Of a DNA stretch of 64,000 bases, positions 16,183 to 50,720 are shown in pieces. Positions within the stretch are counted from its first letter, which is position 1. Each line of letters starts with the position of its first letter. The notes below the pieces were generated by a model. The model saw nothing but the letters and a program-made list of their open reading frames with translations. It made no database searches and was not told the origin of the DNA. Source of the DNA: Clusia tigrina (taxonomy: Eukaryota; Arthropoda; Insecta; Diptera; Clusiidae); NCBI GenBank assembly GCA_920105625.2, contig OV050030.1, positions 70,221,611-70,285,610 of the forward strand. Reading direction: 5' to 3'. The position numbers and the translations under genes were made by a program.

Positions 16183-16541
16183 AGTTAAGTGATCATACGT
16201 TATGATATAAAAAAAAAACGAATTTTTATTAATTTTATAACCGTTTATTCCCACATTATTTTATCAACTAAGTACAATATGAAAATGTTAATATTAATAT
16301 ACCTAATTATTGCTTACTACTATGATTTACAATTTTATTATTTCTTATTCTTAATGTTTGGCTTGCGTAACACAATTCTGATAACTAGTTGTCAGCATTA
16401 TAAGTTTACTGACTTGTTGCGTTTAGGCCGAGAGGTGATTGACCAGACGCAACGTCAGCAGAGTGCCAACTTTATTGTTGTTAACTGAGGTGACTGACCA
16501 GGCGCAACGTCAGCAGAGTGGCAACTTTATTGTTGTTAACT
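16183..16541 (-). repeat. 3' LTR of E2
   Basis: Starts AGTTAAGT and ends GTTAACT. It is nearly identical to 22541-22898. The minus-strand sequence just before it is purine-rich (ATGGAGG), as expected of a polypurine tract. It holds a second, shorter repeat of the CAACGTCAGCAGAGTG word at its right end. Confidence 0.9.
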
Positions 16542-16609
16542 CCTCCATGTTTAAAATCAATTGTCCTCAATTGATCAAAAAAATGGTAGGTTGTCCAAAT
16601 TTAAATACG

Positions 16610-18004: not shown

Positions 18005-18079
18005 CGTCATTGTTGTTGCTGTAAGCGTTAGTCTGAAGAAATTTTTTAAAAAAGTGTTTGTTTTACGTAATGTTAATTC

Positions 18080-19024
18080 TTAGTTTTTAATATTGCTCTT
18101 ATGAACTACCCTATTCGATTCTGTCAAAACTGTAGTTGACTTATTTTCCTTAACTACCTCTTTTTTATACCTAGGCGAGATTTTAGTTCCTAGCCTCTTG
18201 TGGATCCTAACATAAATGGTTACACCTTGCTTAAAGTCTATTATTGGTTGCAATTTGCTGTTGTGGTTTTTAAGGTCTTGTTGCTGTTTATCTTTTAATC
18301 TCTGAATGTTATCTATCCTTGCTTTCTCGAAATGTTCAGGATCTGTACTCACTGTGCGACCGAAGAACATTTCTATTGGCCTGTTGTTAAATGTGCTGTG
18401 AATTTTATAATTATATTCATAGACAGCTCTGTCTAAAAGTTGTATGAATGATTGATCTTTATTTTCTGCTTTTAAACAGCGCATAATTCCTGAGAGAGTT
18501 GAATGAAATCTCTCGATTTAGCCATTTACTGCACTTTTGTAAGGCGGAGATTTGAAAATTTCGATTTTTAATATGTCTTCAATCATGAAAGTAATGAATG
18601 CTGAATTAAATGCCTTTTCGTTATCAAAAACGATAATTTTAGGAACCCCAAACAGAAAGAGAAGTTCCCTAAGACGTTCTTTTATATCTTGAGTAGCTTT
18701 AGATTTTATTAGTTTAACTTGAACATATTTCGAAAATTTATCAATAGCAGTGAGCACAAGATGACCTTCCGTTTTATAGATATCCATGTGCACTATAAGC
18801 CCTGAATACAACGGAATATGTGTTTCTTTTAGGATAGGCTTATTTGGATGTCTATCGTACTTATTCGTCTTGCATATATTGCATTGTTTAATTATTTTCT
18901 TTATTTTATTATTCAGGCGTGGAAAAAAGAATTTTTTTAGTATATGAGCTTTATTTTCCTTGCCGTTACGATGTGCTCTCCTGTGAGTTTCTATAATTAT
19001 TTCCTCCTGTCTTTGTTCGTCCAA
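18080..19024 (-). pseudogene. pol: integrase of E2 with nonsense codon
   Basis: The zinc-binding region (HRRAHRNGKENKAH, CNICKTNKY) and core (VHMDIYKTEG with the first Asp, IIVFDNEKAF with the second) are open from 19024 to 18518. The frame then hits TAA right before the catalytic Glu (IERFH) and continues open from 18484 to 18080 with the C-terminal domain (RLGTKISPRYKKEVV). A second stop at about 19040 separates it from RNase H. Each lesion is a single codon, so decay is mild. Confidence 0.85.
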
Positions 19025-19042
19025 TACGTCTTCTATTTTTCG

Positions 19043-20305
19043 TCATGCAAATTTAATACGGTATTTTTTAAAGTGATTTGGGAAGATTTCCTGGATTATC
19101 CCCATTATTGGCTCAGGAGCACTGATTCCATTAATCACTGAGGGGTTCAAATGTTTTTTCAACAATGCGATAACGTTTCTCTCGGAAAATTCTATTTCTG
19201 TTATAATATGGCGGTGAAAGGTAGGGAAAATGGTCTGAAAATTGTAACTTGACTCTGACGACCAATTCATAAATATTTGATTTTTAAAAACGTTGATCGG
19301 TACCTCTACGGATTGAATTAAATCCTGACCTGAGCTATTATCACAATGCGTCATAATTGACATTGAATTGATTTGTTGTTGTTGGGCTGGAATTCTCGAT
19401 AATGCATCGGATACGACGTTGGTTCGACCGGTATTATAAAATATTTCGTGGTTGTATTCTTCTAACTCCGCTTTCCAGCGCTTCATCTTTATGTTTGTAT
19501 TCTTGTTGCTCAGGGCAAAAGTCAAGGGCTGATGGTCAGTATAAATTTTTACCTTAGCATACCCATACAAAAAATTTCGAAGAGAGGATAGTGCCCACAC
19601 AATGGCGAGCATCTCTTTCTCATTGGCAGCATAGGGCTCCTCTGTTTGATTCAGTGTTCGAGAAATAAAGGAAATGGGTTTGCCGTTTTGAGATAGGACG
19701 GCACCAAGTGCGAAATTTGAGGCATCGAGTGTGAGCTCAAAATCATTGTTGCAATTTGGAAAATATAGTATTACCTCATCTGAGACCAACGTGTTTTTAA
19801 GTTTTAGGAATGCTTCTTTCGCTTGTTCATTGAATTCGACCGGTATTTTTGCGGATTTGCTCTTTGAGATTCGGCCTTCTTCGCCTCTTAATAAAACTGT
19901 TAGCGGTTTTGCTAGTTTCGCATAATCGCGAATAAACCTACTATAATAGCCGGAAAGGCCTAAAAATGAACGCAGCTCTTTGTAGGGGAATCTGGATGGT
20001 CTAATGATACCATCTTCTAATAATTTTTCATCCTGATATTCCACTTCGCCTCTAAACGATGCAGGATATGGGTGGAATTTGCTATATACCGGAGAATCGG
20101 TTGTAGTTCTCACCTCTCCCACTACATTGGTGGTGTATGTCAACCGTTCGTCTGGTTCTGAGAATAAATTAGGGTGTTCTATTATTAATTGCTGTAAAAC
20201 TTGTTTTTGATTTAGACTAATATTATCATCGTGTATTTTTATAGCATTAACCGATTCTGTTTCTAGTTGTTTAATTAATATTCTTGAATTATTCTGAATT
20301 GACAA
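19043..20305 (-). pseudogene. pol: pol of E2 with RT core deleted
   Basis: 420 open codons. After the PR-RT linker (LTYTTNVVGEVRTTTD, SPVYSKFHPYP) the sequence goes from GIIRPSR straight to FPYKELRSFLGL. The RT fingers and palm, including the YxDD motif, are missing, yet the frame is kept. The RT connection and RNase H follow (LTLDASNFALGAVL, ISRTLNQTE, ATNEKE-like, TDHQPLTF). The product could not copy RNA. In-frame deletion in a protein that is otherwise open is unusual for random decay. Confidence 0.85.
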
Positions 20306-20771
20306 AAACCCTTCTTTAATGTTAATTACAGCATCTAGCTGTTTTAAACTGTCATAGCCTAAAAGGAGTAATAAAAAAAATTTTATAGGTTCTGCTTGAT
20401 TAAAATGTGTGGTGTTTGATTTCTATGTCACCAGCTATAGTTTTTGCTAAAAATACATCTTCATTTACTAATCCTTTTTTTTGCTAAGCTTGGCTGAATA
20501 TAATTCTGACTTGAGCCAGTATCAATAAGAAATTTGAATGATTCGCCGCTCTTCATGCGATATTCAAAATAAGGCAGCGAAGAGCGTTTTAGGCTAAAAA
20601 ATGAACATCACTATATTCATAATATTTTCCTTCCTCTTGTGTGTTCTCAGTCACTACACTAAGATATTCATTGAGATGTTCATCTTCTACGGGGTTGGAG
20701 CTAGTGTTTGGAGAGTTATTTATATGAAAATTACGTTGCATCTTTTGTGGTTTGACATTCTGCACAGACGC
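20306..20771 (-). pseudogene. pol: protease region of E2
   Basis: Minus-strand DTGSS (codons at 20509-20523), preceded by GESFKFLI, marks the retropepsin active site. The frame is interrupted after it. The part nearest gag holds mixed frames. Confidence 0.65.
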
Positions 20772-21926
20772 TCATTGTGGCCTTTTACCGAAGATTTGAT
20801 TGTTTTGAGGACGGTTCATATAGTCAATACGACGTGAACGCAAAGTTTCGTCTATCTCCATATGTACCAGTGGTTTTGAGGCCTGTGGGCGCATGGGCGG
20901 TTGGTTGGTCAGTGTTTGTACGTTCGGATTATTGTTTAATGTCTGACTTGGAAAGTTTTGTCGCGAAATAAATTGTGGTTGTGGTTGTGGCAAGTGTGCG
21001 ATTTGTGGATAGAATAGCTGTTGATTTACTTTCCTACGAAAGTTTCTTGGTGGTGAAGATGGTGCGGTGTTTCTTTGCATCCCTCTACGATCAGAATTGG
21101 TATTGTGAGCGTATCGTGTGCGGTATCCTTGATTCTCCAGTTTGAGACGCAAGTGCAGAGCTTGTGGCAGATCTATTGGTTCTTTCATACCCAAGAGCCT
21201 AGGTAGATCGCCGTGAAGGCCTCGCACAAAGGTGTCTAAAGCCTTGTTTCTGTATGTGTGTGTTAGAAGATTGAGAGCTTCACTACCTACGTCCATACTT
21301 CCAAGTTTATTAAGTATCAACGATAAATTGGAATAGACAGCCTGATAAAATTCCTCTACTGACATGTTTGACTGGACCAATGAGGTCATTTGATATTCGA
21401 GGGTAGACACATCGCGTTTATCCGCGTAATGTAGAGTTAAACTCTTGCAAATAGCGCCCCAATCTAGGGGTGTGTTATAAGACTCCAACACGACGTCTGC
21501 ATTGCCGACGATTTTGTTTCTAAGAACATTAAGGATCCCATAGTATTTTGGGGTACCTTTACTTGGTTCGTAAATTGTTAAGATATGATCTACACTCTTT
21601 TTCCAGGAGTTGAATTCTCCTGGTTTGCCCGAAAATTCACGCAAGCATTTTACCACATCGGGTATTTTTTCGAGGTCTGCAAGATTATTTGCATGTTCTA
21701 AATTGATCGTTTGATCTGAAATGTCTGATAAATATGCGTTTGGGTTGAGTGTGGATCTTACTATACTGGGACCTTGCCTATTTACCACTTCTAATGCTAC
21801 TCTACTTATCAAATTTACCAGTTCGTTTTCGTTTATCGTCCTCATATTTGGTCCCGTGTTATGTGTGGCGCTAATCGCGGTGTTGCTATTTATAGCTGGG
21901 CGTATAAGATTACTAGGATTCGACAT
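20772..21926 (-). CDS. gag: Gag protein of E2
   Basis: 384 codons from ATG 21926, intact. Gypsy-group Gag: an N-terminal low-complexity part, then a capsid region (FSGKPGEFNSWKKSVDHIL, LRNKIVGNADVVLESY, SVEEFYQAVYSNLSLIL, VRGLHGDLPRLL), then an Arg/Asn/Gln/Pro-rich tail without a clear CCHC knuckle, as is usual for errantiviruses. It forms the particle and binds RNA. It is the only intact ORF of E2, close to the expected family length. Confidence 0.9.
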   Translation of the reverse strand: MSNPSNLIRPAINSNTAISATHNTGPNMRTINENELVNLISRVALEVVNRQGPSIVRSTLNPNAYLSDISDQTINLEHANNLADLEKIPDVVKCLREFSGKPGEFNSWKKSVDHILTIYEPSKGTPKYYGILNVLRNKIVGNADVVLESYNTPLDWGAICKSLTLHYADKRDVSTLEYQMTSLVQSNMSVEEFYQAVYSNLSLILNKLGSMDVGSEALNLLTHTYRNKALDTFVRGLHGDLPRLLGMKEPIDLPQALHLRLKLENQGYRTRYAHNTNSDRRGMQRNTAPSSPPRNFRRKVNQQLFYPQIAHLPQPQPQFISRQNFPSQTLNNNPNVQTLTNQPPMRPQASKPLVHMEIDETLRSRRIDYMNRPQNNQIFGKRPQ

Positions 21927-22540
21927 ATTTTGTTTGTATTAGTTTGAGTTTATTAAATTATTTTATGTTATCCTTTCGGTAAAAGGATTTGCCCTGGAGG
22001 GTCCTTTTAAATGGAATCGCAGGAATGAATATATTTTATACTGACGGGAATCAGTTAAAGTTTTTGTTATCTTTTTACTCTATTTTATAATTTTGTTACT
22101 TCGATGATTTTCACAATTTAAAATATTTTGTAATATAAATTTAATACTTTTAAGATTTATGGTAGAATATATAACTTTTTTAATTACCAATTATTTTTCT
22201 TCGCTTACACTAAACAAGCAGCAACATTCATTTCGGTTGTTGATGCGGTTCTCGGGTGTCGATGTGGCGGCTTGCGTTCAACGCGTCCTGTTTGGTTCAC
22301 TACTAAGGGGCCGTTTCACATACGCTAATACTGTCCTCCTGTGTAATTCTTCTGTTGCAGGACTTCTTGACTACTTGAGGCCTTTTTGATTCCTGGAATT
22401 ACAGCTTCGATTTGTTACTTCTCCACACGTTTCCTACGACCGGACTTCAGGACTACTAAAGGCCTTTTTTAATCCTTCAGATGCAGCTTCGAGCGCAAAC
22501 TGTTTTGTCGCGCCGTGAGAGCTTACTTTGCTCGGGCGCC
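21927..22540 (-). other. leader and primer site of E2
   Basis: Minus-strand TGGCGCCCGAGC directly follows the 5' LTR (22530-22541) and resembles a tRNA-Lys-type primer site. The leader contains an imperfect 85-90-bp duplication (about 22360-22500) in which GACTACT...AGGCCTTTTT and GCAGCTTCGA-like words recur. I see no row of Su(Hw)-type binding words like those in the Drosophila gypsy leader. Confidence 0.55.
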
Positions 22541-22898
22541 AGTTAAGTTTTCATACGTTATGATATAAAAAAAAACGAATTTTTATTAATTTTATAACCG
22601 TTTATTCCCACATTATTTTATCAACTAAGTACAATATGAAAATGTTAATATTAATATACCTAATTATTGCTTACTACTATGATTTACAATTTTATTATTT
22701 CTTATTCTTAATGTTTGGCTTGCGTAACACAATTCTGATAGCTAGTTGTCAGCATTATAAGTTTACTGACTTGTTGCGTTTAGGCCGAGAGGTGATTGAC
22801 CAGACGCAACGTCAGCAGAGTGCCAACTTTATTGTTGTTAACTGAGGTGACTGACCAGGCGCAACGTCAGCAGAGTGCAAACTTTATTGTTGTTAACT
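22541..22898 (-). repeat. 5' LTR of E2
   Basis: 358 bp, AGTTAAGT to TTAACT. It matches 16183-16541 with few differences. Flanked by TGTA at 22899. Confidence 0.9.
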
Positions 22899-33735: not shown

Positions 33736-34696
33736 ACCTGAAAGGAACTTACTCCAGCGTCAAAGCCAGAGTGTGAGGCTAACCAACGTCCCTAAGAACG
33801 GTGAACTGTAGATGAAATGCAATAGCAACGAACAAAAAAGTTGACTGAAGAAGACGATGAAGTAAAGGTAGAAGAAGGAGAAGAACAGCAAATTCTGTCT
33901 GGGAATAAGTTTCTGTTAAAAGTTAAAGAGTGGAGGAGGTACTAACTTCCCATGCGGTATGGTACCAGAAGTATACTAACAAAGTCAAAGAAACTACGAG
34001 GCTAAGCTCAGGCTACCGTGGGGATCACAGGTGGCGGATAGTGAATGGCCTACCAGAGTAGGTTAGCTGAGAATAACCAATAAGTAGTCCCCGACCAAGA
34101 GCGGCAAGCGAGGAGAGTGCGACTGAAAAGGTCTGCTAACTCTGAGAAACGCATGTGACAAGACGAGTAGGCACCGTCTAAAGAAGTGCTCCCCATCCAT
34201 TCACAGATGGCATCGTGGGAGACACAAGTAAATGGAAACTGACGCGGTATGCCCCTAGGAAAACGATTTGAAAACATATATGAACTGTCTGCCTTGGGCT
34301 GGTAGCTGCAGTATTCCGTTACCTCAGTATACCCGAGAGATATCGGGTGGAAATGGCTTTCGGGCTAATGCTGTAGCTACCTCTGTCCCGTTAACACCGT
34401 GGCGGGTCTTCAAGTACGTTCGATGTTGCGTCACCATTAAGTTAGCGGTACAGGCTCAGTTGAGCATCAATCCTGACTAACGCTTATCCTGGCGCTGAGT
34501 ACAAGTTCTCATAAAGACTTGTGCCAACCCTCGGTGGAACTCCCTGCTTGCATAGACAATCACATATATATTTTCAAAGCGACTGTACATCCCTACCGCG
34601 AACCAAACGTCTCTGGGAGCAAAAGGGAACCAACAACAGCAGGAGTCTTCTTGAAATCCCACACTATTATTGAAGAAATATCCCGTCAGCTCACCC
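33736..34696 (+). other. left flank of the provirus, probably LINE L3 5' region
   Basis: Before the provirus inserted, this DNA was joined to 50125. It has higher GC than the AT-rich DNA to its left and no long ORF. Its position before an ORF1-like reading frame suggests a LINE 5' UTR or ORF1 start. That role is inferred only from context. Confidence 0.45.
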
Positions 34697-35169
34697 TGTT
34701 GGGGTCCTCGAGTCCTTGTTTGGCTGGGGACGTCCTGTCGCAGTTCTTTCGGGCGCGTGGCTGAAAAATCAAGAGCCCTATCGTAGAATTCCAAACACTA
34801 TAACTTTCAGTTTTTTTAAAACACAAGAGAGCTTTATTCTTAAAATACTAGTTCTTATATACTATTTACAAATGAACATTACCGCCTACGTCTTGACTTT
34901 TCTGGTGTTCCAGTTTCGCAATTGTTATTTGTCAGTTGCTCAAGCCAACCGACCTACTTCAGTAAAAGTGTCGTCGGTGCATTCTAAATGCCCCTCGTCA
35001 GCTTGACTGCGGAACTGTGACACCCTAAAAGTTTACATCATAATTAGTGCATAAATACTACTCATTTACAATATTTGCACCCTAAAAATATGTGCATTAT
35101 TAATGAGTTTAATAGGAGCCGGTGCTGTGAGTCAACTGCGCGTCAGTAGCTTGATTCTGACTCACAACA
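34697..35169 (-). repeat. outer 3' LTR of the compound provirus
   Basis: 473 bp, TGTTGGGG to ACTCACAACA on the plus strand. It is preceded on the minus strand by the polypurine tract (35170-35183) and the hairpin (35190-35210). Differences from the 5' LTR that I saw are at about 34921 and 35147. Confidence 0.95.
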
Positions 35170-35210
35170 TCCCTCCCCTCTTTCTAAAAGAAGTTAGTGC
35201 AACTAACTTC
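35170..35210 (-). promoter_or_regulatory. polypurine tract and upstream hairpin (outer 3' LTR)
   Basis: The minus-strand purine run abuts the LTR, and the perfect 9-bp hairpin occupies 35190-35210. The layout is identical to that at 414-454. Confidence 0.85.
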
Positions 35211-35600
35211 CATTAAATCTTTACAATATTTTTCTTGCACTGCAAACAAATATGTGCATCGTTTGAACTCTATAGTACATATATATAATTTGTTTTATTT
35301 TTTCCATGAAATCGCCTTATTTGGGTTCTATAACGGTTTTTTTTTTTTTTTTTTAATTCTTTTCTTTTCCATATATTTCTTTTTCGCTAGCTTTTATTTT
35401 CTTCTGTAGTTTTCTTTCTTTTATTTTTTTCTTTACTTTGTGTTTGTTTTTCTTTTTTCTTATTTTTATACATCATTATTTTTTTTTTATATTCCCCTTT
35501 TTATAATTTGGTCTTTCATTGACTCTTTTCTCATTGGCGTATATACAAACATCTAAACAATAATACAATGCTATTCTATACCTAAAACCTTATATTATAC
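35211..35600 (-). other. A-rich post-env segment with conserved block
   Basis: The sense strand is A-rich throughout. 35509-35545 holds the block that is nearly identical in all copies (CGCCAATGAGAAAAGAGTC, then AATGAAAGACCAAA). Confidence 0.7.
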
Positions 35601-37061: not shown

Positions 37062-37924
37062 TAAGTGTTTTCATAGCCATATAGGGCAATATAGGACAAT
37101 AGACAAATAATCTCATTTGTGTCAAAACTTTGTCCATTGCACGACTATATCTTTCATCGCATACAATTACTTTTTATTTAAATTCACTTCTAGCCTGATA
37201 TGTATATATCCATTAACGTTTCTATCTTCCATCCTGTAATTAGCTCGTATATGGCTACATACATACATTCGAGGAGCTTTAAATTACCTACAATTAATTG
37301 CTTATTTTCCCAATCAACCTATACATTTTTTCAAATTTTCATACGTTAATTTCCTAAACAATATACAGTTAAAACCTATGTACGAGTATATCTACATATA
37401 GCCTGCTGCAGTATCTGCAAATTCCCAATTCCTAATCATATGTCCCTACATACTTACTTATATGGCCATACCCATTCCTATAATTAGAATACTTCTTTAA
37501 ATATTCCCTTGTACATTCATTTTGTACATTATACAGTTACATACATACTCGTATATATTTACTTCACCAACGGTGCCGGCGCTACTGCTTTCATTTCATT
37601 AACCGCCGTATGTATGTATGTACATATTTGAAGTTAAGTTTTATATTACTTGCCCACGACTGTCTTACTATTTTATTTTATTTTTTAAATACGTGCAATA
37701 TTTATCAAAAAAAAAATATTTTTCCCTACTGTGCTTCGTTCGACCATAGTGCATAATAAGCACATTTTTATTACGTAAATTTTACTTGCTCGAGTTTAAT
37801 TGGCACACTTCTGCTGGCCTTGACTTTGAAACTCGGAGCTGTGTGTGTTATTTAATACACACACGTACATGTTTACGTTGTTATTCTTGTGTTTACACTT
37901 GTAAAACACTGCTAACACATGTCT
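37062..37924 (-). other. pol-env spacer of the outer copy
   Basis: Homologous to the spacer at 42109-42630 and 43330-43620 but without the antisense gene found there. I see no ORF in it. Confidence 0.6.
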
Positions 37925-39133: not shown

Positions 39134-39638
39134 TGTTGGGGATCTCGAGTCCTTGCTTGACTGGGGACGTCCTGTCGCAGTTCTTTCGGGCGCGTGGCTG
39201 AAAACTTAAGAGCCCTAACGTTGAATTCAAACACTTATTGCTTTTCAGTTTCAAAACACAAGAAGAGATTTATTATTACGAAACCTAATACTTATATACT
39301 ATTTTTTAAACATCTATCTCAGTCTGTGAACTGACCTTTCTGGTGTTCCAGTTCTGCACCTGCTAATTGGTGTCAGTTGGTCAAGCCAACTGACCCACTT
39401 CAAAAGTGGCGACGGTGCACTACGCTGCCCTCGTCGACTCGACTGCGGAACTGTAACACCCTAAAAGCTTACATAATAACGTTGCACAGATCACATTAAC
39501 TTGAAATACTTAAACCCTAGAAGTATGCCTTATGATAACACCGTTTTAGCACATGCTAATTCAACATAGTGTGGCATCTATTAGGAGTCGGTGCTGTGAG
39601 TAAACTACACGTAGGTAGTAAGGTTCTAACTCACAACA
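39134..39638 (-). repeat. inner 3' LTR (second element)
   Basis: 505 bp with the family ends, but clearly diverged from the outer LTRs. It carries a TATA box (39291-39298) and a poly(A) signal (39269-39274) in minus sense, and is preceded by its own polypurine tract. No partner 5' LTR of this type is in the window. Confidence 0.9.
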
Positions 39639-40086: not shown

Positions 40087-41919
40087 TTACGTTATAACCT
40101 CCGCTAACTGATTATCCGGTTGTCGGCTGCCGTTGTCGGTATGGTTGTTGTGTTGCGCCGTTGGTGTGGTTGATTCGAGTCTTTGAAGGGCCGCCACTAT
40201 CTTGCACCATTTTTTCGAAATGAGCGTCGTCACCATCACTACCACCAGGATGAGGCCAGCTATACTGACTACCCCTCCCTTCATCCAGGTGTGCACTATC
40301 TCACAGAAATTGGTGAGGTGTGACACCCTTTCCACATCTTCTGCCCCCTTAACCAACTCGTTGATTGCTCTGCTGTTTGTTGTGAGAGTTTTTCGTAGAT
40401 TCTTGAAATGCATGAGTGAGACCGTGTTCGGTGTTGTGCGCGTGTGGCCAGAATCACCTCGTTTATAATTTTCCAGCAGCTCCTGCAGCTTCGTCTTTAA
40501 ACGGTTTGTTCCCATGACAGACGTTGAAAACTTAAATCGTGACTCTTCTTGACTTTTATGGACCAACATTATCCCTTTGCCAATCACCCTGCAGCCAGCT
40601 TCGATGGTCATAAACCCGGTGTTTACCAATTCCAACCGTGTGGTTTCGTCTGAGCACACCGCCGTGAAAATCACCTGGTCGTCAAAATGGTAGAGCCATT
40701 TGTTTACAGTCCTGGTAGCTACCAGAATTCCTCCCGTAGCTGGAATGGCTACGTGATCGCATTGGTCTTGCTCATGTTTCAAGACTTCTATCTCGCAGTA
40801 ATCGCTTGCTCGCGTAATTACTTTTCCGGGATGGTAGCATAAACGTCTTGTTGTGCCCACCTCTCGACATTTCCCTTCGTCCTCTATTGATAGGCCAATG
40901 TAGTGTTCTTGAGCCTGGCTTGCCGCTGTAATCATATCTTGTCTGTAATCATATCTTGTCTTCGGCAGCACGCACCAATCTGGGTTTAGTCTCTTGGGTA
41001 TTGGGTACACTTTGTGCATTGTAAATACCTCCAGTAACGGCACTGGAATCTTTATGACTATTTTTAACCCGTTCTCCGCCTCTTCTGTTCGGACCTCGGC
41101 TAGTTCATAGAACCGCTCCGGTGCCTCGCTGTACCATGAAATTCCTTTCATTGACATTGGTGCTGCCTTGAGCAATTCATCAGACGTCAGGAACAATGGG
41201 TGTAGTTTGCCATGTAATAAATCATCGAGCACCACTATTTCCGTTTGCTGTTGGTCCTGGAACCTCATCATTTCTTCAGAAACAACTTTTCCCAACATGA
41301 AAGATTCTGCCAAGTTCACCTCTGCTTCCTCTTGTCTCTTTCCAATGCCTTCCAATGCCAAGTGCATCTCTTCCAGCTCTTGGAAAGTCTTATTTACTGC
41401 TTCGTGAAGGCCCTGGTAACCTGCTCTCATCACAGTCACCTCTTTTCCCAGCAATGACAACGTCTTTGACTGCTTTCTCTCAAGGACCCGCAAGTGACCA
41501 TAAATCCGATCTGAATCTTGGTGGTCCATCGTACCGATTGCCCATTTGAGCACTTCACCGCCAACATCTATTAGCGACCGGCGTTTCCTTCCTTTCAGAG
41601 ACAATGTCTTCTCCTTTTCCAAGAATCTTCTCGTTATAGCTTCTATCTCCAAAATCGAAGAATCGCATCTTCGTTTCAGCTCGGTCCCGCTGGCCGCTGC
41701 ATGCCTCTCACACAACCTTCTGGTTGTCTCCTGTATTCCTTTGAATTGCTCAACAATAATTTTCAGCTCCGTTCGTGGAAACTCTGTTACAACCACCCAA
41801 AAATCCTTGGCGAACCATACATCTCCAGTCTTCTCCATTAATACATCTGTCTCCGGTAGTTTATCCAACCGCACCTCCGCATGTACCCTGTCGGTGACCG
41901 CCATCAACAGCACTAACAT
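40087..41919 (-). CDS. env: fusion-type envelope glycoprotein, intact
   Basis: 610 codons from ATG 41919. Residues 1-15 form a short hydrophobic leader. A furin-type site (KGRKRRS) lies at about residue 136, followed by a fusion-peptide-like segment (LIDVGGEVLKWAIG) and heptad-rich helices. Cys-rich ectodomain residues follow, and a single membrane span (VSIAGLILVVVMVTTLI) near residues 540-560 with a basic cytoplasmic start (SKKWCK). This layout matches the F-type envelope proteins shared by baculoviruses and insect errantiviruses, which drive low-pH membrane fusion. The length is normal for the family. It is the best preserved env in the window. Confidence 0.9.
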   Translation of the reverse strand: MLVLLMAVTDRVHAEVRLDKLPETDVLMEKTGDVWFAKDFWVVVTEFPRTELKIIVEQFKGIQETTRRLCERHAAASGTELKRRCDSSILEIEAITRRFLEKEKTLSLKGRKRRSLIDVGGEVLKWAIGTMDHQDSDRIYGHLRVLERKQSKTLSLLGKEVTVMRAGYQGLHEAVNKTFQELEEMHLALEGIGKRQEEAEVNLAESFMLGKVVSEEMMRFQDQQQTEIVVLDDLLHGKLHPLFLTSDELLKAAPMSMKGISWYSEAPERFYELAEVRTEEAENGLKIVIKIPVPLLEVFTMHKVYPIPKRLNPDWCVLPKTRYDYRQDMITAASQAQEHYIGLSIEDEGKCREVGTTRRLCYHPGKVITRASDYCEIEVLKHEQDQCDHVAIPATGGILVATRTVNKWLYHFDDQVIFTAVCSDETTRLELVNTGFMTIEAGCRVIGKGIMLVHKSQEESRFKFSTSVMGTNRLKTKLQELLENYKRGDSGHTRTTPNTVSLMHFKNLRKTLTTNSRAINELVKGAEDVERVSHLTNFCEIVHTWMKGGVVSIAGLILVVVMVTTLISKKWCKIVAALQRLESTTPTAQHNNHTDNGSRQPDNQLAEVIT

Positions 41920-42014: not shown

Positions 42015-42108
42015 ATTGAATGCTACATCATTCAATTCTCCGTCCACTCGTCTTCCCCCCTTACATTCTCGGATTACTATCGTATCCCAGAGGAAAAGAG
42101 GACTGGAC
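42015..42108 (-). other. conserved foldable element in pol-env spacer (inner copy)
   Basis: Stems ATTGAATG/CATTCAAT (42015-42036) and GTCCACTC/GACTGGAC (42042-42049 with 42101-42108, one mismatch). Counterpart of 36967-37061. Confidence 0.55.
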
Positions 42109-42638
42109 TATGTTTATTGCCATATATTGCATTAGTTCCGCTTTGACTAATTTTTCAAGCTCTTTTCAATACGTGAGTTATCACTCATTCTAGCTTCGAA
42201 CCAAATTATTAATCCTCCGACAAAATTAGATTATAAAAAATAATCCCATTTGTGTCAAAACTTTGTCCATTGCATGACTATATCTTTCAAAGCAAACAAT
42301 TTTTATTTAAATTTACTTCTAGCCTGATATGTATATATCCATTAACGATCGTCTCTTCCTAGATCGCATATGGCTACATACACATATTCAAAGCAATATC
42401 TTATTCACTATCTTATACTATTTTCCTAAATTATGCCTTTCTTCATTTATCTATACAATAAATTCCTAACTAATAACTTTCTATATCTATCTAACCCGCT
42501 GCAAAGTCTGCAACCTCCTAAATTCTAATTACCCGTCTTCATATACTTGACCACATCATAAAAATATCTGCTTGTTCAAATATATATCCGAACACCTACT
42601 CAATACCTAGTACCCCATACCTGAAATTTGGTCGTAGG
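42109..42638. other. pol-env spacer, left part (inner copy)
   Basis: AT-rich DNA homologous to the outer spacer up to about 42390, then unmatched. No ORF. Confidence 0.5.
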
Positions 42639-42868
42639 GTGCTCATCTTTCTCTTAGCCGAACCTGCCCACTACATTATGACCCGATTATCGCTGGCCGA
42701 TTTGAGAACATGTCTCGGCAATTTAGTTCAGCTATTTTTGGTTAACTTTTTACGTTACTCTGTTGAAATATCGGTATTTATTCTGTCCGCTAACTCGGTA
42801 TTTTGTTTTATTTTGTTGAAATGTGCCTTCTTAGCACATTTCCGAAAACAGACCGTTTATTGGTTTAC

Positions 42869-42900
42869 TATAAAACCGTGCTTCTGCACTGAATTTCAGC
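42869..42900 (+). promoter_or_regulatory. antisense core promoter (TATA and initiator)
   Basis: TATAAAA at 42869-42875 and TTCAGCA-type initiator with its A at 42898, a spacing of 29 bp, which is the canonical insect TATA-to-start distance. It lies 55 bp upstream of the ATG of the plus-strand ORF and points against the retroelement's own genes. Confidence 0.6.
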
Positions 42901-42923
42901 ACAGTCAAACTTCACCAACTACC

Positions 42924-43310
42924 ATGAATTTCAAACTTGGACAAAGTATGTTGGACTTCAAGCAGGTGACCAAAACCCTGCTAGAAGAGTCGGCGCCCCT
43001 GGTACACCCCGCTTGCTCTGCACTAAGCATTGCAGAACACCGCCGCCTAATGGATCTAACCCCCGGCTCCTACATGCCCACCTACGCCATCCTCTACAAC
43101 TATCTAAAGGAGATTGACAGCCAATGGGATTATCCTGAGGCAGTGGACGCCTGCTGGAAACTCCTGCTTACGTCAAGACTCAAACCAGGCGAACCAGGAG
43201 TCGAGAGAGTGCTCGGGCAACTCCTAGTTGTGCTGCACCGGGCGCACGAAATGACCGTGCCCGGATTCCCACCCGGGAATCCAATCGTAATCAACAAATT
43301 TTTCCCTTAA
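42924..43310 (+). CDS. antisense accessory ORF of the provirus, unknown function
   Basis: 128 codons on the strand opposite to gag-pol-env, in the spacer between pol and env. The ATG has a good context (ACCATGA). The third codon positions are strongly C/G-rich, unlike the AT-rich spacer, and the ORF covers nearly the whole GC-rich island, which argues for real coding. The predicted protein is about 14 kDa, soluble, mostly helix-friendly, with several Trp/Tyr (QWDYPEAVDACWKLLL) and a Pro/Gly-rich end. It has no signal peptide, membrane span or zinc motif. I do not recognise the family. A TATA box and initiator precede it, and AATAAA signals overlap and follow the stop. It could be a captured host or viral gene. 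Confidence 0.65.
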   Translation: MNFKLGQSMLDFKQVTKTLLEESAPLVHPACSALSIAEHRRLMDLTPGSYMPTYAILYNYLKEIDSQWDYPEAVDACWKLLLTSRLKPGEPGVERVLGQLLVVLHRAHEMTVPGFPPGNPIVINKFFP

Positions 43311-43328
43311 TAAAATAAACTGAATAAA
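43309..43328 (+). terminator. poly(A) signals of the antisense gene
   Basis: AATAAA occurs at 43309-43314 (overlapping the stop codon), 43314-43319 and 43323-43328 on the plus strand. Confidence 0.55.
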
Positions 43329-43624
43329 AAATAAAAATCATATAAAAAAAACTGTCTTACTATCTTATTTTATTTTTTAATTACGTGCAATATTTATCAT
43401 TTAATATTTTAAAAAAAATATTTTTCCCTACTGTGCTTCGTTCGACCATAGTGCATAATAAGCATTTTTATTACGTCAACTTTAATCGCTCGATTTTAAG
43501 TGGCACACTTCTACTGGCCTTGACTTTGAAAATCGGAGCTATGTGTGTTATTTGATACACACACGTACATGTTTACGTTGTTATTCTTGTGTTTACACTT
43601 GTAAAACACTGCTGACACATGTCT

Positions 43625-46162
43625 TTAGTTGTGTGGTCTAATGTGGAATAATTTCAACAAATTATTATGTAGCTTTTTATTTTTGCCCTTAATCGTTACG
43701 ACCGTTGTAACTGGGCTTTTGATCTCTGCTACTACATAGGGACCTATCCACACAGGTGAGAATTTGTTTCTCCTAGCCTGATTCTTCATTAGTACTTGAT
43801 CACCCACATGAAAAACTACTGGGTTTAGTACCTTGTTATAGGCTTCCCTGGCCACTCGCTTAGCATATTCCTGGTTTTCTCTAACCAATTCGTGCGCTCT
43901 TTGTAACTGATACTTTTGCACTTTATTCGGGTCATCAGCATTGTATACAGGCCCACATTTGCGCTTCAAATTCGCTGGCATGTTGAAGTCAAACCCGTAG
44001 AGTGTTCTAAACGGAGTTTGCTTCGTTGATACATGCACAGTATTGTTGTGTACATGCATTGCAGTGGTTAACCATTGATCCCAATTCGAGCCGTCTTCTT
44101 TGGCAAAACTGCGCAAGTACTCGGCCAGAGGTCGATGACTACGTTCCAATGAGCCATTCGCCTGTGGATGATATGGTGTTATGTGTAACTTCTTGATTCC
44201 CAGCATTTTACACGTTTCTGAGAATAGTTTTGATACGAAATTTGAACCATTGTCGGTTATCAAAACCTTAGGTATGTTGTAACGTGCTATAATTTCATCA
44301 AAGAATGCTTTGGCTACCGTACCTGCTTCCGCATCAGGTATAGCCACGCACGCCATATACTTTGAGAAATCATCTTGGAACGTCAAGATGTATTTATTGC
44401 CCGAAACAGTCTCCGGTAAAATACCTACAATATCCATATGAACCTTATCAAATGGTTGCTTTAGTGTGTCCGTTAACACCATGGGCATCTTTGTTAGCCT
44501 TGAACTTTTGTTGGCCTGGCACTTTGGGCAACTTCTTACATATTTTTTTATGTCCTTGAGCATACCTTTCCATCCGTATACTCGCCTAATTCTGTCATGG
44601 GTTTTCCAGAATCCCTGGTGTCCACCTAGAGGTGAATCATGGAAACCCTTTAACACAGCCTGTATATCTTTTCTATCCTCCAGCCATTCCACATTACTGG
44701 CTGTTTGTTCATTAGCAGCGTCACCTGCATTGCTAACATTTCTTGTTGCATCAGTTTTACCTTCTAGAATTCTCTCGGCCTTCTCCTTATCTGACCGAGC
44801 CTTGGCCCTCGTTTGCACTACTGATACCTTCAGTGCCTGAGGTACTCTGCTGAGTGCATCCGCATTCAGATTCTTTTTCCCAGGTTTGTATATGATTTCA
44901 AAATCATACTCAGACAATTTGTGTCTGAACCTAGCTAGCCTAGACGTTTGGTCTTTCAAATTGGCTATGCCTCTCAACGGCTGGTGATCAGTGTATATCC
45001 TGAATGGGCGTCCTAGCAGATATGCCCTAAAATTCTTGGTAGCCCATACTATGGCTAGAAATTCCTTTTCTATTGTGGAGTATCTCTTCTCCGTGTCGCT
45101 AAGCGCTCTGCTTGCGAATGCTATTGGTCGGTCATTCCCGACTTCCCCTTGTGACAATACTGCCACTAATGCTTCATTGCTAGCATCAGTGGTCAACAAA
45201 AAAGTTTGCTCAAAGTCGGGGTATGCCAAAATTGGTGGCGAGCTAATTATTTCTTTTAGCCTCTCGAATGCTTGCTGACATCTCTCTGTCCATTCGAACT
45301 TTGCATCTTTTAGTAGCAACTTATTAATGGGCAAAGCAATTCCGGCTAGTCCTTCCACGAACTTTCTATAATAGTTCACTAGTCCTAGGAATGCTTGCAC
45401 TTCTTTTCTGTTTCTTGGAACCGCTAAATTTCTAACGCATTCCACCTTCTGCGGGTCAGGCAGTGCTCCTGCTTCTGAGCAACGATGCCACCCTAAATAA
45501 ACCACCTCTCTTCGTAAAAATTGACACTTCTCCGTGTTCAATTTCAAGTTGTGTTCTCGTAATTTCTGGAGCACCTTGCGCAAGCGTTGCGAGTGCTGCT
45601 GCAAGTTCTTCCCATAAACTACAATATCATCGAGATACACGAAACAATCTAACCCTTGTAAGCCTGTTAGCACATGGTTCATTAGCCGTTGGAAAGTAGC
45701 CGGTGCTCCTGTTAATACAAACGGCATTCTATTGAACTCGTAATGGCCTAAACCGGTGCTGAACGCGGTTTTCTGCTTATCTTGGGTATCCACCAGAACT
45801 TGGTGGTAGCCACTCGCTAAATCAAGTGTAGAAAAATATCTACTGTGTCCCAATTGATCCAGAATCTCTTCTATCCTTGGTATCGGGAACACCTGCTTGA
45901 TAGTGGCGTCGTTAAATTTCCTAAAATCGACGACCATTCTCCACTTCTTCTGACCCTGCGCACCTCCCTTCTTTGGTACCAAAATTATTGGTGAGTTCCC
46001 AAGCGAGATACTCGGTGAAATGATGTTATCTTTTAACATTCCCTGCACTTGCCTATTTACCTCATCTTTGTGAGCCTGTGGCAACCTGTATTGCTTCTGG
46101 TTAATCGGTGCTTGATCCACCCTAGTAGGTATTTCACGCTCTACCTCTGGTGTATATGTCAA
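43625..46162 (-). CDS. pol: Pol polyprotein: RT, RNase H, integrase
   Basis: 845 open codons, cut from the upstream linker by a single TAG (46163-46165). The codon after it is TTG, so this is not an independent start. RT: SPIILVPKK, FSTLDLASGYHQ, GAPATFQRLMN, VYLDDIVVYG. RNase H: TTDASNEALVAVL, ASRALSDTE, IYTDHQPL. Integrase: GGHQGFWKTH and CPKCQ zinc ligands, VHMDIVG, ITDNGSNF and GSLERSH for the catalytic triad, and a GPY-type C-terminus. All catalytic residues are present. Apart from the TAG this is a complete Ty3/Gypsy pol. Confidence 0.9.
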   Translation of the reverse strand: MTYTPEVEREIPTRVDQAPINQKQYRLPQAHKDEVNRQVQGMLKDNIISPSISLGNSPIILVPKKGGAQGQKKWRMVVDFRKFNDATIKQVFPIPRIEEILDQLGHSRYFSTLDLASGYHQVLVDTQDKQKTAFSTGLGHYEFNRMPFVLTGAPATFQRLMNHVLTGLQGLDCFVYLDDIVVYGKNLQQHSQRLRKVLQKLREHNLKLNTEKCQFLRREVVYLGWHRCSEAGALPDPQKVECVRNLAVPRNRKEVQAFLGLVNYYRKFVEGLAGIALPINKLLLKDAKFEWTERCQQAFERLKEIISSPPILAYPDFEQTFLLTTDASNEALVAVLSQGEVGNDRPIAFASRALSDTEKRYSTIEKEFLAIVWATKNFRAYLLGRPFRIYTDHQPLRGIANLKDQTSRLARFRHKLSEYDFEIIYKPGKKNLNADALSRVPQALKVSVVQTRAKARSDKEKAERILEGKTDATRNVSNAGDAANEQTASNVEWLEDRKDIQAVLKGFHDSPLGGHQGFWKTHDRIRRVYGWKGMLKDIKKYVRSCPKCQANKSSRLTKMPMVLTDTLKQPFDKVHMDIVGILPETVSGNKYILTFQDDFSKYMACVAIPDAEAGTVAKAFFDEIIARYNIPKVLITDNGSNFVSKLFSETCKMLGIKKLHITPYHPQANGSLERSHRPLAEYLRSFAKEDGSNWDQWLTTAMHVHNNTVHVSTKQTPFRTLYGFDFNMPANLKRKCGPVYNADDPNKVQKYQLQRAHELVRENQEYAKRVAREAYNKVLNPVVFHVGDQVLMKNQARRNKFSPVWIGPYVVAEIKSPVTTVVTIKGKNKKLHNNLLKLFHIRPHN

Positions 46163-46564
46163 CTAGTCTCCTTCCAGCAAAAATATGCCATGGAATGACG
46201 TACAAATGGCTTCTATTGATGCCTTCTCTTCTGAGTTTACGCTTGGCTCTAACTTCAATGATTCTAGCACTCTCTCCATTCTTTTCCTTATATCTACCTG
46301 CTTAATCTGATTAACCGTTCCATAATTCGGTTCCTTAAAATTATCGTAACTAGTGCACTTAGGTCTAAAATCCTCATCCATCAGGTAGTCCTTTTCTGAT
46401 GCGTTGAGTACGCAAGCGTACACCTTACCCTTGTCAACGTGCGTTATGGTTTCTCCCATATAGACGCCCTCCGCTCGCTGCTGTTTGTGCAAACCGTCCG
46501 AAGATTCGTGTTTACATCCATAGTAACTACTCTGGTTGACCTTGCGTTCACTACCTCTACACAA
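46163..46564 (-). CDS. pol: PR-RT linker of pol, ending in a TAG
   Basis: In the pol frame. EGVYMGETITHVDKGKVYACV is the usual linker after the protease in this group. The frame runs to GIFLLEGD and then the stop at 46163-46165, directly before LTYTPEVERE of the RT part. Its upstream end overlaps the protease ORF in another frame. Confidence 0.75.
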   Translation of the reverse strand: MCRGSERKVNQSSYYGCKHESSDGLHKQQRAEGVYMGETITHVDKGKVYACVLNASEKDYLMDEDFRPKCTSYDNFKEPNYGTVNQIKQVDIRKRMERVLESLKLEPSVNSEEKASIEAICTSFHGIFLLEGD

Positions 46565-47352
46565 TTCTTAACCCTATTCACGGTTCCTTCCTGCCATGAC
46601 TTTAATGGGAGAGTAAGGATTCTATTCTTATTATCATCATAAAATGATAACTGTTTTTCTAACGCATCCAGTATGGTGCGGCCCCAGAGATTATCGCGGC
46701 CAATTATCCCATCGGCCGGGATACCTTCCCTATCCAACTCAACTGCGTGCACTCTAAAACTCATTCCCTTAACTTTACTGTGCCCTATATTAAGTGACCC
46801 CAGTGTTCTGATGCAACCCCCAAACGCTCCATTAAGCGTTCTTACATCCTTTGGATCAACAACTAGTCCTTTCCGTAAAGCACTAGATTTTACGAGGCTA
46901 GTATCCGCCCCTGAATCTACCAAAAGCATTAGCTTTCCACTAACTGCCTCCTTGCAGGGTATCTCGATGAAAGCATCTCCTACCCTGCTTACAACGAAAC
47001 AACGACCTTTGGACGCGTATCTACCTCCTAACTCTTCCAATTTTCTCCTCCATGCACCGCAGTTATCCCTTACAATCCTATACTCCCTCAATATCACCGT
47101 TAATATCTTAACTACACATTCTCGTACCACGTACGCGGCGATTGGCTTATACTCTCTAACCTTATTAAAACTTAGTCTAAGTACTAGAATCATCACAGTT
47201 ACCCAAATCAATACGCAATCAACAATTTTCTCTCGGAGAGGCTCTTGCTCCTCCGTAACTTGAACCATTGTTCTTACGTTACTTGGTACGTGGTATTGGA
47301 GAGCCTCTTGCTCCTCCTTTTCCTGGACTGTACATCCTACATTACCAGTCAC
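46444..47352 (-). CDS. pol: aspartic protease of the provirus
   Basis: 302 open codons. The active site LLVDSGADTSLV is near residue 145, and the domain ends with DGIIGRDNLWG. It cleaves Gag and Pol. The frame differs by one nucleotide both from gag upstream and from pol downstream, and there is no ATG at its start (GTG), so it is expected to be made by frameshifting or to be joined to pol by a lost or gained base near 46480. The first 110 residues include a hydrophobic stretch (VLIWVTVMILVLRL). Confidence 0.8.
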   Translation of the reverse strand: MTGNVGCTVQEKEEQEALQYHVPSNVRTMVQVTEEQEPLREKIVDCVLIWVTVMILVLRLSFNKVREYKPIAAYVVRECVVKILTVILREYRIVRDNCGAWRRKLEELGGRYASKGRCFVVSRVGDAFIEIPCKEAVSGKLMLLVDSGADTSLVKSSALRKGLVVDPKDVRTLNGAFGGCIRTLGSLNIGHSKVKGMSFRVHAVELDREGIPADGIIGRDNLWGRTILDALEKQLSFYDDNKNRILTLPLKSWQEGTVNRVKNCVEVVNARSTRVVTMDVNTNLRTVCTNSSERRASIWEKP

Positions 47353-47365: not shown

Positions 47366-48610
47366 CTAACTGTTGCTTCCTTTCTTTTGGCTCAGATCAT
47401 ACAACTCGACTCCTGAGAACATGGGCACCACCTTCTCCACCGCATGAGCTACTTCCAGAATGCCCATTTTACTTCTATTTGCTTGCTTAAGTTTTGATGA
47501 TAAACTAGCGTTAACCTCTGTGGGGGTTTCCAGATTTTCTTCTCCCGAATCTGAGAGGTACTTAACCAGTGACGGACTCAAACTTATTAGTCTTCGACCG
47601 TTTGTTCCTATCGGCGAAATACTGTCCACTGTAATAGGACTTTCCTGTACCGTTACTGCTTCTGGCTCTTTTGGCGTATATCCCTTATTTTTATTAGTTA
47701 CCGGACGTTCTGGAGAAAGAGGCTCGACCCCGATTTCAGATGCTCCAAACAAAAATCCCGCTTCACTTTCTCCAGTCAATACTAATCTAGGCTTTACCAC
47801 ACGACCTATCCCTTCCGGAGTTAAATACTCCGGCCAGCGAACTTCAGGAGGCAATGTCAACACTGTCTGTGTAAATCCAGCCGATGCTGATTTTGATCTC
47901 TCCTTTCTATGTGGGTTGCTATTGGTCGCCCGTCCTCTTTTCAATCCTGCACACTCCTTCTCCAACAGCGCTGCTGCTTCCTCTGTTTCCGACAATCTCT
48001 GAGAAAGTTCCTTTACCTTATTCTCAAGATACTCTTTTTGTGCTCTCAAATCTTCTGTTTTCTCATGAAATTTGAACAACTTTTCTTCTGTCCTTTTTTG
48101 GATTGCCGTCAAGGCTTGATCCGCTACTTCTAATGGTGACACAGCGCCTCCGGCGTTCGCCTGCCTCCACAATTCCTGAGCTTCTTCCCTGCTCGTACTT
48201 GCTTCGAACTGGTCAACTATTTTCCCAGTAAACAGTTTCACCTCTGACTGTATTGATTTTAATCTGTTCCTTACTTCCTCGTCTGGCGAAACCAACCTCA
48301 CTGTTTGTTGCCCTAGTCCTTCTAATTCAGAACTAAATGTATCTGCCCATTCGTTGACCAGACTATTTATGTAGTCTGCGTATTTTTCCGCAAAATATTT
48401 TCCCTTGCCGTACTCAACTTCGTGAGGCAACAACAGTCCGTGATTATTGTTGAACTCTCTCCCCAGATCTTGCAACTGTGTTATTCGCTTGCGGTAATAC
48501 ACGTTGTCCTTACGTAACCTGCCGTCTTTCTTAAAGTTACGGACCAGCTTTTCAATTGTTTCGCCAATTTGTTCCTGTCTCAGCAGTAATCCTTGCGCTT
48601 CCTTCGTCAT
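47366..48610 (-). CDS. gag: Gag protein of the provirus
   Basis: 414 codons from the first ATG at 48610; a stop lies 12 codons upstream. The N-terminal half is helical and charged. Residues about 170-235 form a coiled coil rich in Glu/Lys/Leu heptads (EKTEDLRAQKEYLENKVKEL). The C-terminal part is Ser/Pro/Thr-rich without any CCHC knuckle, so RNA binding may rely on the basic segment KRGRATNSNPHRKERSK. The position next to protease and the length support Gag, although I see no strong sequence signature. Confidence 0.75.
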   Translation of the reverse strand: MTKEAQGLLLRQEQIGETIEKLVRNFKKDGRLRKDNVYYRKRITQLQDLGREFNNNHGLLLPHEVEYGKGKYFAEKYADYINSLVNEWADTFSSELEGLGQQTVRLVSPDEEVRNRLKSIQSEVKLFTGKIVDQFEASTSREEAQELWRQANAGGAVSPLEVADQALTAIQKRTEEKLFKFHEKTEDLRAQKEYLENKVKELSQRLSETEEAAALLEKECAGLKRGRATNSNPHRKERSKSASAGFTQTVLTLPPEVRWPEYLTPEGIGRVVKPRLVLTGESEAGFLFGASEIGVEPLSPERPVTNKNKGYTPKEPEAVTVQESPITVDSISPIGTNGRRLISLSPSLVKYLSDSGEENLETPTEVNASLSSKLKQANRSKMGILEVAHAVEKVVPMFSGVELYDLSQKKGSNS

Positions 48611-49636
48611 ATCCCAAATGCCAGAACAGATGTCGTATCCCAATTACAAATAAAAATCCAATAATTGGTAAAACTTGTTATTAACTTATCCCAATATTTT
48701 ATTCCATCCTACTTATTGATAAATACAAATTTATTTAAAAAGAAAAACATTCCACCGTAAATTCTATATTTATATACATATTCTGCTATACTTGTTTTCC
48801 ATCACAAAGTTCCGCTGTCTACCGGCGTCCATTAAGTCCTTCCATCAATGCAAATTGGTCCTTGGCTTCCTCACTGATACTCCTTGATTTCCTCTCACCA
48901 TCTTTAATACTCCCAAAAATACATAGGAAAGGCCATATGTTTGTAAAAACCGAAATTTGATTTACCGGCAAAAGTGACTTGATTCATTCCTGGAAATTTG
49001 AATCCATATTTAAAAATAAACCCGTAGCGTATGCGCCACATAATAATAGAATTTAACTGTTATCTTCAACATTGCTACGCAAATTGTAGTTTCCGAACTA
49101 CAAAAAACTTTGATGCAACAACACGTGTTGTCTGCACCTCTTCACCTAATACCCTAAACTCAGAATGCCAAATATTTAAATCAATTTTGATTTCAAAACA
49201 ACATAAATTCACAAAATCTGAATTTAAACAATAAAATAACTTAATTATTTCCAAAGTAGATGGCATGGCTCAATAGACAATACAAATGTCCCTCACGACA
49301 AACAAACTCAAAACCCCTACCAAAAAAATCCTCACAGCTAGGATGAACATACATAGACCGTCCGATCATACTGACGGTTTATGGTTGCCATACAAAGCTG
49401 CGTGCAACAGCGCAAACGCGCCTATAGGTTGCGACTTCTTTGACCAGCGCTACGGCGCCTTCAGGGTCGCAGAAGTATCTACTTATTCTACGCTACTATA
49501 CACTCTACTCACCATTATTTTCCCCGATGACATCCTTTCCCACAGGGTCCTTAAATGAGATCCTTCAAATTCGTTGCAGGATGCCTCTCTGCTTCAGGGT
49601 TCCGTGCCCTGGGATTGCTCCAATAGGTCCTTAAGA
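48611..49636 (-). other. provirus leader between primer site and gag
   Basis: About 1 kb of AT-rich leader with only short open frames. It should contain packaging and splice-donor sequences, which I cannot identify. Confidence 0.6.
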
Positions 49637-49651: not shown

Positions 49652-50124
49652 TGTTGGGGTCCTCGAGTCCTTGTTTGGCTGGGGACGTCCTGTCGCAGTT
49701 CTTTCGGGCGCGTGGCTGAAAAATCAAGAGCCCTATCGTAGAATTCCAAACACTATAACTTTCAGTTTTTTTAAAACACAAGAGAGCTTTATTCTTAAAA
49801 TACTAGTTCTTATATACTATTTACAAATGAACATTACCGCCTACGTCTTGACTTTTCTGGTGTTCCAGTTTCGCAACTGTTATTTGTCAGTTGCTCAAGC
49901 CAACCGACCTACTTCAGTAAAAGTGTCGTCGGTGCATTCTAAATGCCCCTCGTCAGCTTGACTGCGGAACTGTGACACCCTAAAAGTTTACATCATAATT
50001 AGTGCATAAATACTACTCATTTACAATATTTGCACCCTAAAAATATGTGCATTATTAATGAGTTTAATAGGAGCCGGTGCTGTGAGTCAACTGCGCGTAA
50101 GTAGCTTGATTCTGACTCACAACA
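49652..50124 (-). repeat. outer 5' LTR of the compound provirus
   Basis: 473 bp, nearly identical to 34697-35169. In minus sense it holds TATATAAG (49809-49816) and AATAAA (49788-49793), the expected promoter and poly(A) signal. Confidence 0.95.
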
Positions 50125-50720
50125 ACCCAGACAGGAATTCATCATACAGATGAGAACGGCAGAAGAAGAAGCTCTCTCGAAATGTCGGAAAGTCTTGACG
50201 AACATGAAGCAAGCCATGATCAAGCAGAAGAACGTGATCATGGATGTAAAGACCGGAGTTTCCGGGCTAGACGAGCTTTTCGACGTAATGGAAAGCTATA
50301 GGCGAAACTGGACGGAAAACGAGAACGAATGCAAACTTGTTACGGCACCGAAACCGAGGCACACGGCCCTGACAAGCGCCTCAGCAACACCGACGATGGC
50401 TACACCCAAACGAGCAGCTTCTAGCCCAGCAGAACCAGAAGATGGGGAAAAAATTCTGCGAAAGTAAGGCCGATGGGTGGCAAACTGCCACAAGGAGTAG
50501 ACGTGTGGCAACACGAAGTCAAACACAGGAAAATTCAGCAGCAAAGAATTTCGTGGGCGACAGCGATAAGTCACGAACAACAATGCAAGGGAGACATAGG
50601 ACAAAGGAGACAAAACCAAAGTCCGAAGCCGTCCTTATCAAACCAGCAGAGGGTTTCAAATATGGCTTGCAGATACGAGCGGAACGGCGGCCATATGGTT
50701 ACCTGTAGGCAGTAATTTTA
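50125..50720 (+). pseudogene. LINE L3 ORF1 remainder
   Basis: The frame from 50150 encodes a helical, Lys/Glu-rich segment (EEEALSKCRKVLTNMKQA, GVSGLDELFDVMESYRR) like the N-terminal coiled-coil part of R1-type ORF1. It stops at 50467. The pieces after that shift frame, and no CCHC knuckles are seen, so the ORF1 end and the start of ORF2 appear deleted. Confidence 0.55.

Follow-up and report, generated by a model that had tools for sequence, protein, structure and literature searches.

Protein-coding antisense genes are found in a few vertebrate retroviruses and in some plant retrotransposons; one of them, HBZ of HTLV-1, encodes a bZIP protein. The errantiviruses of Drosophila include gypsy, ZAM and the 17.6 group. 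APH-2 of HTLV-2 is an antisense gene of a deltaretrovirus (PMC11963269), and the HTLV antisense promoter is located in the 3′ LTR (PMC7264820). In plants, Ty3/gypsy elements carry antisense ORFs between pol and the 3′ LTR (‘aORF-3R’), described in the available portions of two papers for maize Grande gene23, rice RIRE2 and Silene Retand (PMC7264820, PMC11963269); Grande gene23 has its own promoter (PMC7264820). Optional extra genes that are exchanged between retroelements are described for the LTR retrotransposons of bdelloid rotifers (PMC5408684), and the introduction of an annelid survey mentions additional antisense ORFs (PMC8220671). Silencing by piRNAs acts on insect errantiviruses (PMC13172572, PMC12992720). 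Among the matches listed from the open-access literature, none was an antisense protein gene in an insect errantivirus.

The gene considered here, which we call AS, lies in a window of 64,000 nucleotides (C1:70221611-70285610) from a host assembly of 1.21 Gb in 666 contigs, the one genome from which all evidence on AS comes. Its closest known counterparts in kind are the antisense genes of the plant Grande and Retand elements, with which it shares an LTR-retrotransposon carrier, a position downstream of pol on the opposite strand and presence in many copies. Unlike those elements, the carrier of AS has an env of baculovirus F type and AS sits between pol and env; AS is also absent from many copies with near-identical integrases, and its alleles are deeply diverged. 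Antisense ORFs with TRP28 (PF04195) occur in 97% of Retand clusters, whereas AS, at 128-137 codons, has no Pfam match. Like HBZ and APH-2, AS is a protein gene opposite the gag-pol-env of a retrovirus; its conserved TATA box lies in the pol-env spacer, an internal position for the predicted promoter, and unlike HBZ it has no bZIP match. With the rotifer elements it has in common that an optional extra gene is exchanged in an animal retroelement, but theirs include env, a GDSL esterase and a DEDDy exonuclease, and the available text describes no antisense gene (PMC5408684). The gag-pol-env order and F-type env of the carrier are those of Drosophila errantiviruses, for which the accessible parts of two papers, in contrast, mention no antisense coding gene (PMC12992720, PMC13172572). 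On this comparison AS appears to be new for insect errantiviruses, antisense genes of retroelements as such being already known.

Carrier element and antisense frame

The window holds two related Ty3/gypsy proviruses, nested and on the minus strand. In the inner element, the carrier, pol (43625..46162, minus strand) encodes reverse transcriptase, RNase H and then integrase (Pfam RVT_1, RT_RNaseH, Integrase_H2C2, rve), with an in-frame stop directly upstream of the ORF. The protease region (46444..47352, minus) matches Asp_protease_2 at 24.0 bits, just under the cut-off of 24.3, and an ORF of 425 codons without a Pfam match (47366..48643, minus) is assigned to gag by position alone. The env gene (40087..41919, minus) is of baculovirus F type (Pfam Baculo_F, E 7.9e-22). 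The inner 3′ LTR (39134..39638, minus) adjoins a polypurine tract and is inserted in the pol of the outer copy, its start at 39134 corresponding to 44846. The outer element is bounded by a 3′ LTR (34697..35169, minus) and a 5′ LTR (49652..50124, minus) that are 99.4% identical and flanked by the target-site duplication ACCC (34693-34696 and 50125-50128); a polypurine tract lies beside both 3′ LTRs. Domain order, F-type env, and LTRs with polypurine tract and 4-bp target duplication are all errantiviral features, and we infer an insect errantivirus-like element, ‘insect’ following from the element type. The window yielded no 5′ LTR belonging to the inner element alone, which could be explained if the two gag-pol stretches had recombined.

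Further elements lie elsewhere in the window. Positions 1-931 match 34697-35580 in reverse at 85% and resemble the 3′ terminus, with its LTR, of one more family member, which lies on the plus strand and is cut at the window edge. At 16183-22898 there is another gypsy-type element, whose ends are 98% identical and which includes a fragment of a Gypsy-type env (PF07253). When viral contigs were scanned with pol, a single distant locus turned up (L001, 27% identity); it was left unused.

AS (42924..43310, plus strand) lies between pol and env on the strand opposite both, with its ATG at 42924, 128 codons, and a stop at 43308-43310; we assign it to an allele group termed AS1, with full-length homologues under purifying selection. 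The original prediction had named a TATAAAA, an ATG and 128 codons with GC-rich third positions, across which no sense-strand ORF runs, and all of this holds: G+C by codon position is 0.60/0.38/0.60, compared with 0.28-0.35 for the flanking parts of the spacer and 0.42 for the 55-bp leader, and the ORF list of the window contains no minus-strand ORF of 80 or more amino acids overlapping AS. The length of the frame is by itself only moderately unusual. An ORF of at least 128 amino acids on either strand arose in 5 of 1000 shuffles of 42880-43330, in 5 of 1000 of 42390-43350 and in 18 of 1000 of 42020-43624; length is therefore not decisive, and proof rests on other genomic copies. Codon usage leads to the same reliance on copies, since the score of the AS frame was reached by none of 2000 base shuffles but by 13% of 265 off-frame control pieces. 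Upstream of the ATG the frame of the window copy stays open (223 codons counted from a GTG), but 45 of 62 AS copies have a stop within 16 codons before the ATG, so that 42924 is most likely the true start.

Copies, transcription signals and selection

Searching the host assembly with the 128-residue protein gave 550 first-look candidates, of which the best 150 were scored (66-100% identity); 127 of these contain no stop and 23 do. We read 60 loci including that of the window (L003). The top 20 were taken with flanks of 1.5 kb and a further 40, picked from lower ranks, with flanks of 2.5 kb; 39 of these 40 came from matches listed without a stop. In 59 of the 60 loci AS runs against the pol or env next to it. 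Of the 58 loci with a pol within reach, 57 have it on the strand opposite AS, and the two loci where it is out of reach (L047 and L059) have env there. The exception in orientation is the rearranged locus L008, where two AS genes share the strand of pol and env; their identities to the AS of the window are 95% and 77%.

These loci contain 62 AS genes, and 60 of them have a full-length open frame, a share that overstates the proportion of open copies because searches were ranked by score and picks were largely stop-free. The gene of L049 is full length with CTG in place of ATG, and in L061 both copies are cut short by a stop after codon 53. The other five reading frames are interrupted in every one of the 62 copies, and the AS frame itself is open in 56 of 62 in a 127-codon scan, which counts the natural stops of shorter copies besides the two broken ones. 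Conservation of the frame in other copies, proposed as a check on the gene, is therefore found.

The signals around the frame are also kept. TATAAAA (42869..42875, plus strand) is present in 60 of 62 copies and begins 53-55 bp ahead of the ATG in 58 of 62 upstream regions; L049 and L060 have no TATA box in place. An initiator downstream of it had been predicted, and a candidate does exist, but TTTCAG, the motif of that prediction, is kept in 38 of 62 copies whereas CACAGT(C/T)A (42900..42907, plus; 31-38 bp past the TATA start) is kept in 54, making the latter the better candidate. A block just upstream of the TATA box (42822..42868, plus) is alike in many of the 62 aligned upstream regions and is possibly regulatory sequence. 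Poly(A) signals at and after the stop are present as predicted, though they number four rather than three (AATAAA at 43309, 43314, 43323 and 43330; 43309..43335, plus), and 59 of 60 full-length copies have an AATAAA within 60 nucleotides past the stop. These conserved signals suggest that AS is transcribed from its own internal promoter.

The AS frame is under purifying selection. A codon model fitted to 59 distinct full-length genes (128 codons) gave lnL -3762.23 with free omega and -3867.32 with omega fixed at 1, rejecting neutrality (2 delta lnL = 210). Pairwise NG86 estimates (1706 of 1711 pairs usable, 1691 in bins) gave median dN/dS of 0.49, 0.40, 0.32, 0.24 and 0.14 in bins of rising dS, the last being 0.138 over 816 pairs at dS 0.6-2. 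All binned pairs at dS 0.1-2 fall below 1, as do 89% of the 188 pairs at dS 0.02-0.1, the remaining 11% having dN/dS of 1 or more. The near-neutral ratio that would have marked a spurious frame is far from what we observe. Variable sites number 46, 37 and 94, each of 128, at codon positions 1, 2 and 3.

Measured against the copy in the window, AS has a median dN/dS of 0.32 (57 of 60 loci), compared with 0.09 for part of the integrase (51 of 53) and 0.145 for the env N-terminus (38 of 49). These medians cover pairs with dS above 0.02 and identity above 60%, a filter that removes, among others, six loci with a distant env. AS is constrained, though less than pol and env. Four pairs with the window copy have dN above dS (L020, L022, L023 and L025), none of them significantly (Fisher p 0.27-0.74), and positive selection was set aside.

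The conserved promoter would also yield RNA complementary to the spacer region, and Drosophila micropia makes antisense RNAs without coding capacity according to the available part of one source (PMC7264820). If this RNA rather than a protein mattered, by pairing with genomic RNA and feeding or blocking small-RNA pathways, one would not expect selection on the encoded amino acids, an AS frame that alone is open, or changes clustered at third positions. We regard this explanation as very improbable and disfavour antisense RNA as the sole function of AS.

The AS protein and its origin

No relative of AS was found at a meaningful score in Pfam, PHROGs, NCBIfam, PDB, IMG/VR or prokaryote contigs, and the statement that it has no known relative holds for those collections. 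AS itself contains no Pfam domain at any cut-off. Family scans of 44 and of 18 members gave no TRP28 match and no bZIP match; DUF3780 (E 0.22-0.29 in 3 of 18 members) and NinB (0.097 in 1 of 44) were set aside as chance, as were PDB matches at E 0.31-1. AlphaFold2 returned no confident fold (pLDDT 49.9 without an alignment, 52.6 with a 44-row alignment), and Foldseek with the first of these models, built without an alignment, gave matches at E 2.5 or worse. Neither relatives in the searched collections nor these models point to a silencing target. The protein is of about 14.5 kDa with pI 6.4 and has no membrane span, the highest 19-residue hydropathy being 0.94, that is, no hydrophobic segment; at low confidence it is predicted to be helical. 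The best-kept stretch lies around WDYP...W...LHRxHExTVPGFPxxNP.

A match marking AS as a random fragment of a host exon had been suggested as a test. The collections searched contain none, and AS occurs in high copy number beside pol and env of this element family. A functionless passenger, derived from a host gene or part of one that inserted into a single copy, would agree with the lack of a known relative, with G+C above the surroundings and with absence from many copies. Against such a passenger stands the deep divergence across which frame, signals and place have been kept; we consider it extremely improbable, and its recent, neutral form is refuted by dN/dS. An ancestral host gene is a possible source.

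Retroposition of a host mRNA was considered and rejected. The right border carries a short A-run (43344-43351), but the outer copy also has no equivalent of the roughly 285 bp that precede the TATA box. There is no clear duplication flanking the cassette, the longest shared word being 10 bp in AT-rich DNA.

Optional presence, exchange and proposed function

Alignment of the inner and outer spacers breaks off after 42583/37504 and resumes at 43351/37659; between these points lies a cassette (42584..43350, plus strand) that has no counterpart in the outer copy, as had been predicted for that spacer; the matching place there (37505..37658, no strand assigned) lacks the gene. A candidate remnant of AS in the outer spacer, an 11-bp match (ACTTCACCAAC), was reached by 43 of 300 shuffles and is at chance level.

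An integrase query gave 22438 candidates in the host assembly, of which the best 131, at 97-100% identity, were scored. Eight of these 131 copies were read for 1.65 kb past pol: seven have the spacer type of the outer copy and no AS there, and the eighth (L069) carries an AS allele 43% identical to that of the window (E 3e-31), again on the strand opposite pol. The view of AS as optional cargo is supported by these seven of eight sampled copies with near-identical integrases. At least 11 of the 131 scored integrase matches, the window's included, have an AS match no more than 4 kb away, in each case on the opposite strand; two lie near AS1 matches (one being the window) and nine near AS2 matches, as counted from the typed positions of 61 of 150 AS1 and 76 of 150 AS2 matches.

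AS2 denotes the allele of L069 (137 amino acids), for which 594 candidates were found and the best 150 scored, the tail of this list overlapping that of AS1. Six more diverged loci (L070-L075), chosen from matches without stops, all encode recognizable AS relatives; five have the start codon in place, and L075 has none in the stretch shown. Five of the diverged proteins (L069, L070, L071, L073 and L074) are 42-46% identical to that of the window. A TATA box is present in six of the seven loci (TATAAAACC in L069-L074, not seen in the stretch shown for L075), 54-66 bp ahead of the ATG in the same five alleles, and AATAAA follows the stop in five of six loci, the stretch for L072 being too short to tell. 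Against the window copy, diverged pairs are 81-84% identical from TATA to ATG and 68-79% in the coding part, figures on which we do not lean since they come from short alignments with free ends.

Divergence of AS is out of step with that of its neighbours. In eight loci (L039-L041, L044, L048, L051, L052 and L054) an AS dS of 0.8-1.2 stands beside an env dS of 0.08-0.14, and L025 and L050 have the reverse pattern (AS dS below 0.1, env dS 0.39 and 0.67). Carrier spacers are mosaics: in nine of 23 chosen loci the env-side spacer is mostly about 85-94% identical to that of the window, against 68-89% for AS. By these distances AS allele and backbone are decoupled, with AS behaving as a cassette that recombines between backbones. 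A protein that helps env or particles in structure or entry, and has no part in defence, would fit a gene that adjoins env and varies between lineages as env does. Such a helper role is at odds with the decoupling of AS and env alleles in several loci and with the lack of a hydrophobic segment, and we think it improbable.

The env gene itself differs between backbones. In six loci (L020, L022, L023, L030, L042 and L045) its N-terminus is 36-39% identical to that of the window while the integrase is 95-98% identical, and env likewise appears to have been swapped. At L002 (C1:70206571-70209954), 12-15 kb to the left of the window, AS and the env N-terminus are identical to those of the window copy, yet integrase dS is 0.17; one of the two copies is therefore probably a recombinant between pol and AS.

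We favour, as the somewhat more probable account, that AS is a genuine accessory gene of an errantivirus family and encodes a protein that acts in trans and gives its carrier an advantage in a conflict, most likely with host silencing and in second place with competing copies. Its own TATA promoter and poly(A) signals would allow its RNA to be made independently of the LTR, and integrated copies with a silent LTR could then still express AS. Copies with near-identical integrases but without AS exist in number, so that AS would not be needed in cis and its product would act in trans. A conflict is suggested because dN/dS exceeds that of integrase and env and because deep alleles are exchanged as cassettes; host small-RNA silencing would be the likeliest opponent, given that insect errantiviruses are piRNA targets, with self-regulation second. 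A narrower and more tentative proposal is that AS is a polymorphic, exchangeable counter-defence cassette, independent of the LTR and acting in trans, that shields its carriers and aids gene-less relatives in the same cell against small-RNA silencing, the alleles at 42-46% identity being products of an arms race.

The protein could instead control the transcription or copy number of its carrier, with copies lacking AS as targets or escapees. HBZ of HTLV-1 and the self-restriction protein of Ty1 are models of such self-regulators. Own promoter signals, the opposite strand and the coexistence of carrier and non-carrier copies agree with self-regulation, and there is a plant precedent in Grande gene23, which is nuclear and has its own promoter in the available account (PMC7264820). 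The lack of any Pfam domain in AS and its pI of 6.4 speak against it, and the relatively high dN/dS and deep alleles run contrary to expectation; we hold self-regulation to be rather unlikely.

AS combines the lack of a known relative in the searched collections with conserved promoter signals and clear selection. If the proposal of a counter-defence cassette is right, AS would to our knowledge be the first antisense gene encoding a protein in an insect retrovirus. Found on some and missing from others of a set of backbones with almost identical integrases, it offers a natural plus/minus comparison for the effect of an accessory gene on an endogenous retrovirus under piRNA control, and the case illustrates that annotating gag, pol and env alone can miss genes under selection.

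AS matches are clustered at two places in the assembly. Nine from both allele groups lie on both strands within about 78 kb at C3:37.06-37.14 Mb (a region containing L008 and L059), which looks like a graveyard of nested copies and is perhaps a piRNA-cluster-like locus. Eight matches on one strand, about 7-15 kb apart, lie at C1:112.25-112.31 Mb (containing L057), a spacing that suggests a tandem array of whole elements.
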